This document shows, piece after piece, positions 28,881-36,088 of a DNA stretch of 42,893 nucleotides. Numbering within the stretch: position 1 is the stretch's first letter; the number at the start of each line of letters is the position of its first letter. This DNA is from Candidatus Hydrogenedentota bacterium. Lineage in GTDB: Bacteria > Hydrogenedentota > Hydrogenedentia > Hydrogenedentales > JAEUWI01. The notes below the pieces were generated by a model that was given only the letters and a program-made list of their open reading frames with translations, was not told the origin of the DNA and did not search any database. The stretch is from positions 1 to 42,893 of the forward strand of contig JAEUWI010000058.1 of NCBI GenBank assembly GCA_016791475.1. Direction: 5' to 3'. Made by a program: the position numbers and the translations under genes.

Positions 28881-29747
28881 TTAGACGGAAGCGGTGGTCT
28901 TCTTGCCGGTGATGGGGCAAACTTTGGTTTCGCCTTCGGAAGAAGCCGCGTTCGCCTTGCTCGGGCAGGTCTTGGCTTCGCCTTCGGAAGAGGCGGCCTT
29001 CGCCTTGTCGGCGCAGCAGCCTTCCTTCTTCTCGCCCTCGGAGGAAGCGGCCTTGGCCTTGTCGCAGGTCTTGGCTTCGCCCTCGGAAGAAGCGGCCTTG
29101 GCCTTGTCGCAGGTCTTGGCTTCGCCTTCGGAAGAAGCGGCCTTAGCCTTATCGGCGCAGCATTCCTTCTTCTCGCCCTCGGAAGAGGCGGCCTTGGCCT
29201 TGTCGCAGGTCTTGGCTTCGCCTTCGGAGGAAGCAGCCTTGGCCTTGTCGCAGGTCTTGGCTTCGCCTTCGGAGGAAGCGGCCTTGGCCTTATCGGCGCA
29301 GCAGCCTTCCTTCTTCTCGCCTTCGGAGGAAGCAGCCTTGGCCTTGTCGCAGGTCTTGGCTTCGCCTTCGGAGGAAGCAGCCTTGGCCTTGTCGCAGGTC
29401 TTTACTTCGCCTTCGGAAGAGGCGGCCAGCGCGATGGCTTCGGAACGCTCAAGACCCGCCTTCATCACTTCCTGGCGGCGGTGGCACGGGACCGGGGTAC
29501 CGGCCTCTTCTTCCGTTGCCGCTTCAACCTTGGTCGCGGTTCCGCCGACGAAGGCGAGCACCGCCTTCTGAATTTCGCAGGTGCCGCCGCTGTTCGCAGC
29601 ACCGCCGAGCGCGCCCGCCGTGGCCACACCGGAAATCGCCACCATAGTCAGAACGAAGGCCGTCCATTTCAAACGGCTGCTTCCAGACTTCCGTGCGGCA
29701 ACTGTTTCCGTGGCCGCTACCTGTTCTTCGTGGTGTTCTTCATGCAT
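28881..29747 (-). CDS. Membrane-anchored Cys-containing SSEGE-repeat protein
   Basis: 288 residues from the ATG at 29747, chosen for AGGAG 8 nt upstream; the upstream in-frame start lacks one. The N-terminus MHEEHHEEQ is His/Glu-rich. One membrane segment follows at about 28-50 (WTAFVLTMVAISGVATAGAL). A linker with Cys57 and Cys88 leads to eleven SSEGE units from about 108 to 278. Units end in TCDK, TCDK, then GCCADK or CCADK, and this set of three repeats three times before two diverged units ending TCPSK and VCPITG. The tail is GKKTTASV. The repeats are Lys/Glu-rich, probably disordered, with about 14 Cys, so metal or redox chemistry is conceivable. I recognise no family and assign no function. 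It is probably monocistronic. Confidence 0.85.
   Translation of the reverse strand: MHEEHHEEQVAATETVAARKSGSSRLKWTAFVLTMVAISGVATAGALGGAANSGGTCEIQKAVLAFVGGTATKVEAATEEEAGTPVPCHRRQEVMKAGLERSEAIALAASSEGEVKTCDKAKAASSEGEAKTCDKAKAASSEGEKKEGCCADKAKAASSEGEAKTCDKAKAASSEGEAKTCDKAKAASSEGEKKECCADKAKAASSEGEAKTCDKAKAASSEGEAKTCDKAKAASSEGEKKEGCCADKAKAASSEGEAKTCPSKANAASSEGETKVCPITGKKTTASV
28914..29426 (-). repeat. Coding tandem repeats with three-unit superperiod
   Basis: Units of 45, 45 and 54 bp (51 bp in the second cycle) encode A(K)AASSEGExKTCDK, the same again, and AASSEGEKKEGCCADK. Copies differ at several silent positions (for example AGC/TCG-type and GCC/GCA choices), so the array is not freshly amplified. 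It ends with two diverged units. Confidence 0.85.
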
Positions 29748-30123
29748 GGTTTCTGCTCCTGACTCGGTTTGACAAGGATACACATGGGCGCCCGGAGAGG
29801 GGCCCTAAATTTCTCAGGTCTCGTTACACTGTATTCATGAAGGGTGGGGATTCATTTCACAACATGCCACCAGCCCAACGCCTTTTAGAATAGCAGACAA
29901 GGTTGAAAACTGCAACCACGCCACAGCCCGTGGAGCAGGGACGACTCGCGCTCCGGCAACGGGCTAAGGTATTGATTTTGAATGTCTTCGGTGCTCCTCC
30001 GTCCCCTATGGCGGGTCTTCGCAAGGCCGCGGGGTCCCGGTGGTGCGCCGATGCCCCGAAAGATCGTACCATGACGCCTCCGGTCCGTCCCCTCGCGACG
30101 GGCCAGACCATGAAGGTGAAACC
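29748..30123. other. Divergent spacer without a gene
   Basis: About 375 bp between the Cys-repeat gene and rarA, which are divergent, so promoters for both must lie here. I could not identify a convincing -35/-10 pair on either strand. An in-frame extension of rarA reaches 30040 but has no family similarity and is not included. Confidence 0.55.
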
Positions 30124-31446
30124 TTGACCGATTTGTTTGAGATAGCCGCCGCCGAGCGGATGCGCCGGGAGGCTCCCCTGGCCCGGCGGGTGGCACCGCG
30201 CACGCTGGATGATTTTGTGGGGCAGGAGCACATTCTGGGTCCTGGAAAGCTTCTCCGGCGTGCGATTGAGGCGGATCGCATCACCTCGCTGCTCCTTTAC
30301 GGCCCCCCCGGCACCGGGAAGACCGCCCTGGCCCGCATCGTGGCCATGCGGACCAAATCGGCCTTCGAGCCGCTGAACGCGGTGACTTCCGGCGTGAAAG
30401 AGCTCCGGGAACTTCTCGCCCAGGCGAAACAACGCCGCATCCACGAACAGCGGCGTACGATTGTTTTTGTGGACGAGATCCACCGCTTCAACCGCGCCCA
30501 GCAGGATGCCCTCCTGCCCGACGTGGAGAATGGCAACATCACCATGATCGGCGCCACCACGGAAAACCCCTTTTTCTCCGTGGTCGCGCCGCTCTTGTCC
30601 CGCTCGCAAATTTTTGAGTTCAAACGCCACACCGAGGAGGCGTTGATCGGTCTTATGCGGCGCGCGCTGCGCCACCCTGAGCTGGGCATGGACCCGGAAG
30701 CCATCACGGTGGATGATGACGCGCTGGAGCACATCGCGCGTTACGCCGAGGGCGACGTGCGTCGCTCCTTGAATGCGCTGGAAGTGGCCCTGCTCACCAC
30801 GCCGCCAGTAGAAGGCCGCATCCACATCACGGTGGAGGAAGCCCGGGAGTCGATCCAGCGCAAGCTGCTCCATTACGACGGCACGGGCGACGCGCACTAC
30901 GAAGCGGCCTCGGCCTTCATCAAGTCCATGCGCGGCAGCAATCCCGATTCGGCGCTCTACTGGATGGCGCGAATGCTGGAAGCGGGGGAGACGCCCCGCT
31001 TCGTGGCGCGGCGCATCTGCATCGCTGCGGCGGAAGACGTGGGCAACGCCGACCCTATGGCGCTGGTGCTGGCGAATGCCGCGTTTCAGACCTGCGAGTT
31101 CATCGGCATGCCCGAGGCGCGGATACTCCTGGCCCAGGCCGTGACGTATATCGCGTCGGCACCCAAGAGCAACGCATCGTATACCGCCATCGACGCCGCT
31201 ATTGCCGACGTGCGCGAGGGAAAGACGGTGGAAGTGCCTCAGCACTTGATGGATGCCCACTACAAGGGCGCGAAGCGGCTGGGCCACGGCAAGGATTACC
31301 AGTACGCCCACGACTTCGAGGAGAACTACGTGCCCCAGGATTACGGCGTGGCCCGGGGGACGTACTACCAGCCGACGACCAACGGGAAAGAAGCCGAGAT
31401 CAAAGCCAGGATGGACCGGCTCGACGCGCGGGACCGGGAAGAGTGA
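30124..31446 (+). CDS. rarA: Replication-associated recombination protein A
   Basis: AAA+ ATPase of the RarA/MgsA (WRNIP1) family that acts at stalled replication forks together with clamp and SSB. I take the TTG at 30124 (MTDLFEIAAAERMRREAPLA) as start; it gives 440 residues, typical for the family, and follows GAAGGTG. Features are Walker A GPPGTGKTALAR (about 60), Walker B IVFVDEIHRFNRAQQ (about 115), TTENPFFSVVAPLLSR with the sensor/arginine-finger region, and the C-terminal domain with RRICIAAAEDVGNADP and HYKGAKRLGHGKDYQYAHDF. It is the first plus-strand gene after a divergent spacer, and is convergent with the toxin-antitoxin pair that follows. Confidence 0.95.
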   Translation: MTDLFEIAAAERMRREAPLARRVAPRTLDDFVGQEHILGPGKLLRRAIEADRITSLLLYGPPGTGKTALARIVAMRTKSAFEPLNAVTSGVKELRELLAQAKQRRIHEQRRTIVFVDEIHRFNRAQQDALLPDVENGNITMIGATTENPFFSVVAPLLSRSQIFEFKRHTEEALIGLMRRALRHPELGMDPEAITVDDDALEHIARYAEGDVRRSLNALEVALLTTPPVEGRIHITVEEARESIQRKLLHYDGTGDAHYEAASAFIKSMRGSNPDSALYWMARMLEAGETPRFVARRICIAAAEDVGNADPMALVLANAAFQTCEFIGMPEARILLAQAVTYIASAPKSNASYTAIDAAIADVREGKTVEVPQHLMDAHYKGAKRLGHGKDYQYAHDFEENYVPQDYGVARGTYYQPTTNGKEAEIKARMDRLDARDREE

Positions 31447-35557: not shown

Positions 35558-36088
35558 ATGCTGGATACGATTTTTAGTTGGAATACCGTGTGGTATCTGT
35601 TGTTGTTTCTTTATGTGCCGGCCTGCATCTTTCTGATCGTCATTGTGCTGCTCCAGAAGGGCAAGGGCGTGGGCTTTGCGGGCGCGTTTGGCGCGGGCCC
35701 CGGTGGCGCGGATGCCGTATTCGGCCCCCGTTCGTCCAAGAGCCTTCCCCAGAAGATTACCTATACCATGGCCGGGATCTTCATGACCCTGTCCCTGGCC
35801 ATGTCCATGTTGTCCGGCAATCTGGGCAGCAGTGTGGCGCCTTCCCTCGTGGAAGACACGGGTGTTGTGCCCCAGAACAACAGCGGCGGTGGCGTAAGCA
35901 GCATCGACGATCTGTTCAACGCCGCGCCGGCCGCCGAGGCCCCCGCCGCCGCGCCTGCCGCCGCTGCGCCCGCCGCTGAAGCGCCCGCGGCTGCCCCGGT
36001 CGTAGAGACGCCGGCTCCCGCCGCGGAAGCCCCTGCGCCGGCTGAAGCCCCCGCCGCCGAGGCCCCGGCCGCTCCCGCCGCTCAGTAA
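35558..36088 (+). CDS. secG: Preprotein translocase subunit SecG
   Basis: Small membrane subunit of the SecYEG channel. The ATG at 35558 starts MLDTIFSWNTVWYLLLFLYV; AGAGGA lies about 12 nt upstream. Two membrane segments are seen, about 12-33 and 68-85. The conserved cytoplasmic loop between them is LLQKGKGVGFAGAFGAGPGG. The C-terminal half (about 120-176) is an Ala/Pro/Glu-rich low-complexity tail that most SecG proteins lack, making this one 176 residues instead of about 75-120. It follows tpiA by 120 bp and has its own terminator. Confidence 0.93.
   Translation: MLDTIFSWNTVWYLLLFLYVPACIFLIVIVLLQKGKGVGFAGAFGAGPGGADAVFGPRSSKSLPQKITYTMAGIFMTLSLAMSMLSGNLGSSVAPSLVEDTGVVPQNNSGGGVSSIDDLFNAAPAAEAPAAAPAAAAPAAEAPAAAPVVETPAPAAEAPAPAEAPAAEAPAAPAAQ

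Follow-up and report, generated by a model that had tools for sequence, protein, structure and literature searches.

Among the described systems closest to the locus analysed here are the periplasmic metal sponges SilE and PcoE and the bacterial metallothioneins. SilE is intrinsically disordered when free, its ligands are His and Met, it belongs to the sil operon, and it contains no Cys-bearing SSEGE units (PMC5008109). Bacterial metallothioneins of the SmtA/BmtA type and MymT are Cys-rich, with few aromatic residues and with Lys near Cys (PMC7387436), and have been described as cytosolic (PMC8790569).

We analysed a stretch of 42,893 nucleotides from a Candidatus Hydrogenedentota bacterium (contig JAEUWI010000058.1), hereafter the window, which encodes a Cys-repeat protein comparable to both systems. 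Like SilE and PcoE, the protein is predicted to be exported and carries short repeated motifs with, in this case, presumed metal ligands. It differs from them in that the presumed ligand is Cys, His/Met repeat motifs are absent, and the gene does not lie in a metal-resistance operon. With the metallothioneins it shares the abundance of Cys, the scarcity of aromatic residues and the proximity of Lys to Cys; metallothioneins, however, are small and much denser in Cys, whereas this protein and its relatives are repetitive, probably exported or anchored, and 134-288 residues long. Pfam gave no similarity of the family to SilE or PcoE, and the Pfam metallothionein models had no match at E up to 1 among 8 family members. 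Sequence membership thus fails for both, and the two likenesses hold by analogy only. The gene starts with an ATG at 29747 and ends with a TAA at 28881-28883, and the minus-strand frame is open throughout. Its features and its divergent neighbour are as follows:

29756..29760, minus strand: ribosome-binding site AGGAG (Shine-Dalgarno), 8 nt before the ATG
28881..29747, minus strand: gene of the predicted exported Cys-repeat protein (288 aa), ATG start, TAA stop
29664..29747, minus strand: His/Glu-rich N-terminal tail, residues 1-28 (MHEEHHEE...), predicted cytoplasmic
29607..29669, minus strand: hydrophobic segment, residues ~27-47, signal anchor or signal peptide
29427..29606, minus strand: non-repeat linker, residues 48-107, two Cys (C57, C88)
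28884..29426, minus strand: eleven SSEGE-Cys units, residues 108-288, one or two Cys each, plus C-terminal CPITGKKTTASV
30040..31446, plus strand: rarA/mgsA (MgsA_C PF12002), divergent neighbour; the listed GTG start is mechanical and the true start may lie further in

An earlier note on this DNA had described eleven SSEGE units, a His/Glu-rich N-terminus and one membrane segment, and all of these were recovered in the 288-residue protein. His is absent after residue 89, and Met is absent from the repeat region. Units 1-9 end in TCDK, TCDK and (G)CCADK, in an order that repeats three times as the same note had stated; unit 10 ends in TCPSK and unit 11 in VCPITGKK. The 144-bp period scores 711 in TRF, versus 482 for the 45-bp period. 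Over the first 24 nt, the mean difference is 2.0 nt for units three apart versus 4.1 nt for units one or two apart. This halving of the divergence, together with the TRF scores, shows that the superperiod is real and was produced by duplication of a three-unit block. As a family trait the superperiod does not hold: no relative shares it, and it is a private duplication of the window genome. Relatives have 20-residue units (G001), 21-residue units with two Cys (G003), CPSK units (G005) or two alternating types (G004). Every genome differs in repeat number and order, and the arrays are homogenised within each gene. Two other repeat tracts were seen in the window: short GC-rich tandem repeats of Ala/Pro type at 35920-35993, and the hexamer GGCGAG in 14 copies at the contig end (42810-42893).

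We sought relatives with a protein query in 60 related genomes and with a profile in 386 genomes, and the matches were confined to 13 genomes of Candidatus Hydrogenedentota, including that of the window. The full protein is present in 11 of the 13 carriers, namely the window genome and ten others; the remaining two have a fragment at a contig end (G006) and SSEGE-Cys units on a different N-terminus (G056). Outside the phylum, the profile search found none in about 318 genomes. A scan of 84,980 species, from which records very near the window may have been omitted, returned a single confirmed locus, also in Candidatus Hydrogenedentota. By genome family, the carriers comprise 6/7 genomes of f1, 2/2 of f3, 1/1 of f6 and 3/3 of f10, plus G056 (f5). 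In the sole f1 genome without the gene (G002), rarA is likewise undetected, which makes an assembly gap likely. No match was found in Pfam, NCBIfam, PHROG or PDB sequences, in Rfam, or in the phage records, plasmids and viral contigs searched; an NCBIfam scan of the window protein gave chance matches only. Literature searches on SSEGE and on Cys-rich proteins in Hydrogenedentota found nothing, and the phrase 'periplasmic metallothionein' was not found either. The view that no known family fits this pattern therefore stands, and we conclude that the gene belongs to a previously unnamed, Hydrogenedentota-specific family of exported Cys-repeat proteins.

Homology within the family can be recovered from the N-terminus alone. 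A profile built from the first 62 residues of five f1 proteins was run against 2,132 background ORF N-termini from the retrieved loci, and it ranked f6, f10 and f3 members at E values of ~1e-10 to 8e-4, with the best background sequence at 0.37. An f10-only profile retrieves f6 and most of the f1 members, and an f3-only profile is weaker, mixing with background near E 0.05-0.2. The N-terminal match places the f10 proteins in the family despite their SSEGE-free tails. The common layout comprises a short N-terminal tail, R/K, a hydrophobic segment resembling KW..F..A...AGV.T...LAG, and a Cys-rich tail. The single hydrophobic segment of the window protein has a conserved counterpart across f1, f3, f6 and f10, and comparable AGGAG, GGAGA or GGAAA sites precede the ATG of the relatives. 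G056 was rejected as a full member, as its protein has SSEGE-Cys units but an ordinary signal peptide and failed the N-terminal profile. This Cys-rich protein (L035:335-928, plus strand) has three SSEAE/SSEGE-Cys units and its gene adjoins uvrB; the SSEGE-Cys unit thus occurs on an unrelated N-terminus.

Exported proteins with many free Cys residues are unusual. Among the homologues, no feature is as constant as Cys. At least one Cys is present in 80/80 SSE-type units from 13 proteins, where units within a gene are duplicates and the independent observations are the lineages rather than the 80 units. The tails after the hydrophobic segment contain 6.6-13.8% Cys and 0-2 aromatic residues; in f1 the Cys are sparse beside those of metallothioneins, with roughly one in every 15 residues, a point against metal binding. 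Of the SSEGE-like element, f10 has just one to three eroded copies (AAGEKE or SGEAE), and 9-12 Cys follow the hydrophobic segment. The pattern named by the earlier note as refuting its reading, SSEGE kept and Cys lost, is absent, and f10 shows the reverse. Ligand-rich residues also recur before the segment, in two alternatives: HEEHHEE or NEHHD in f1 and f6, and, in place of the His/Glu-rich tail, a Cys cluster (CACSCG or CCxxCxxxC) in f3 and f10. The conservation of HEEHHEE, CACSCG and CCxxCxxxC suggests an N-terminus of some importance, which might be kept on the protein.

Most relatives have V/A-x-A (VLAG, VFAG, ALAG, AQAI) after the hydrophobic segment, a signal-peptidase-like site through which the chain may be released. 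The exported chain may therefore be either anchored or secreted, judging from sequence. AlphaFold2 on the single sequence, which is to be read as weak evidence, placed a helix at 23-47 and gave pLDDT values mostly of 33-37 over the repeats. The repeat chain is predicted to be unstructured and is nearly free of aromatic residues, a composition that suits disorder. Of the earlier description as a tethered, flexible thiol-rich chain, flexibility (as a prediction) and thiol richness are borne out, and tethering is, given the signal-peptidase-like site, one of two possible outcomes.

We propose that the protein is an exported, disordered thiol chain, anchored or secreted, that binds soft metals, and we give this reading a probability of roughly 45%. 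The data show the family itself, its layout, selection on the protein sequence, the constancy of Cys and the lack of detectable DsbB or VKOR in carriers, whereas disorder, topology, metal binding and the physiological role are inferred. In the mechanism that we infer, the short tail with its ligands (His/Glu here, clustered Cys in relatives) would stay inside the cell, and the hydrophobic segment would direct the remainder across the inner membrane, possibly serving as its anchor. Once exported, the chain would consist of flexible, nearly aromatic-free short units with one or two Cys each beside Lys and Glu. It would probably act as a multivalent thiol ligand, with several units gathering round soft or borderline metal ions (Zn, Cu(I), Cd, Ag), which would thereby be buffered or sequestered at the envelope. 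If total thiol capacity is selected rather than exact geometry, as we propose, unit number and arrangement would be free to drift by tandem duplication.

The window gene lies between rarA and a ceramidase-like gene. Gene and rarA stand directly head-to-head in the window, G004, G005, G008, G017 and G026, and rarA lies within about 4 kb of the gene in G001 and G003; in G011, G021 and G015 the gene sits elsewhere, away from rarA. To our knowledge, rarA has no obvious connection to metals, and the pairing may simply be a stable neighbourhood. A Ca2+-type P-type ATPase adjoins the G001 copy and a MacAB-like efflux operon lies upstream of the G021 copy, each a single case. In the neighbourhoods examined, we saw no recurring metal-responsive, metal-transport or redox neighbour, and the earlier suggestion that the chain may bind metal or undergo redox change keeps its conditional form. 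Alignment of the upstream regions showed no metal-regulator-like or other shared box beyond the ribosome-binding site, and promoter and terminator scans gave nothing informative. The missing metal neighbour and the missing regulator box both count against our metal-binding reading.

The thiol chemistry of the hosts bears on an alternative in which the Cys of the exported chain switch between thiol and disulfide states, or cross-link chains with one another or with the envelope matrix, so that the protein would serve as a redox buffer or as a structural or antioxidant polymer. The constancy of Cys and the vicinal CC pairs are consistent with such a role. A DsbD-type reductase was found in 60/68 Hydrogenedentota genomes, including 10/13 carriers (the three misses, G006, G011 and G056, include the two least complete genomes), and DsbD is able to feed electrons outward. 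DsbB, however, was undetected in 68/68 genomes, with 6/14 control genomes positive, and VKOR was present in 8/68, comprising 0/13 carriers and 8/55 others, so that no recognised disulfide-forming oxidase is found in carriers. We rejected the absence of VKOR as a carrier-specific co-occurrence signal because this contrast is too small. In addition, the Cys-rich N-terminal tails of f3 and f10 are predicted to be cytoplasmic, where disulfides are unlikely. With neither DsbB nor VKOR detected and DsbD in most carriers, the exported Cys may be reduced or metal-bound rather than disulfide-bonded. We favour this state, although unrecognised oxidases may exist, and regard a redox or cross-linking chain as unlikely while still taking it seriously.

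A second alternative is that the repeats are lineage-specific low-complexity filler, a neutral or weakly useful spacer made by slippage in which Cys is incidental. It would account for the genome-specific repeat number and order and for the internal homogenisation of each gene. The codon-level comparison of units argues against it, and agrees with the earlier claim that the protein sequence is retained by selection. Pairwise, the eleven ASSEGE cores show 102 synonymous and 0 nonsynonymous differences, and the six 15-residue TCDK units show 28 synonymous and 10 nonsynonymous ones, all 10 tracing to a single Val in unit 1; as unit pairs are not independent, these counts are descriptive. Unit-level pN/pS for equal-length units is 0.009/0.222 in the window, 0.013/0.322 in G001, 0/0.199 in G003 and 0.027/0.383 in G005, with a higher 0.120/0.446 in G004. 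The f1 ratios are thus mostly far below 1, and the synonymous excess is weaker in G004. Cys is also present in every unit of separately amplified arrays and is kept in f10 despite loss of the SSEGE spacer. Filler is already disfavoured and seems to us quite unlikely.

A mirrored 225-aa ORF lies opposite the repeat gene at 28894-29571 (plus strand) and has wobble positions in common with it, so silent differences alone do not distinguish the strands. The conserved N-terminus, the start codon and the Shine-Dalgarno sequence identify the minus strand as coding. We rejected the antisense ORF as a real gene, since it has neither a conserved start nor homology and the homologues' N-terminus is on the opposite strand; it is judged to be an artefact.

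Several relatives have Cys-Pro in flexible segments, like haem regulatory motif regions, and the Cys-Pro and other unit Cys could on this account bind haem. CP dipeptides recur in ACPSK (G005), ECPSK (G004), CCPxK (f3) and TCPK (G056). The main pointer to haem comes from G003, where an exported haemin protein of HemS/ChuX type carries a unit-like ASSEKEGATC in its linker, the one further instance of the unit pattern judged convincing across four genomes. That protein (L145:1043-2527, minus strand, on contig 431) has an EF-hand-like end and an ApbE-like gene adjoining it. In the window protein, however, CP occurs in only 2/11 units and most units end in TCDK or CCADK; the HemS homologue of the window genome has no unit-like segment, and that of G001 has SSEPE without Cys. 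We consider haem binding an improbable function for the family. A RiPP-like precursor, in which repeated core peptides would be modified at Cys and excised, would fit a protein that opens with a leader-like N-terminus and continues in near-identical Cys-bearing units, but the supposed leader is a membrane or signal segment and, in the neighbourhoods examined, we noticed no maturation enzyme next to the gene, which leaves this idea with hardly any credibility.

Returning to the soft-metal-binding chain, a more far-reaching version would see in the family a novel kind of thiol polymer at the envelope. Here a disordered Cys-repeat chain, signal-anchored and with a cytoplasmic metal-ligand tail, would act as an exported metallothionein whose repeat number tunes its capacity, in hosts without recognisable DsbB or VKOR. 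We hold this version to be conceivable but doubtful. If the chain binds metal, the His/Met sponges would gain a counterpart built on Cys, retained by a clade within an uncultured phylum that seemingly lacks the usual disulfide-forming oxidases. The family's arrays, constant in ligand and drifting in architecture, also form a natural series that is useful for studying the evolution of capacity-type proteins. If true, the proposal would let one test whether such bacteria hold their envelope thiols reduced or metal-loaded.
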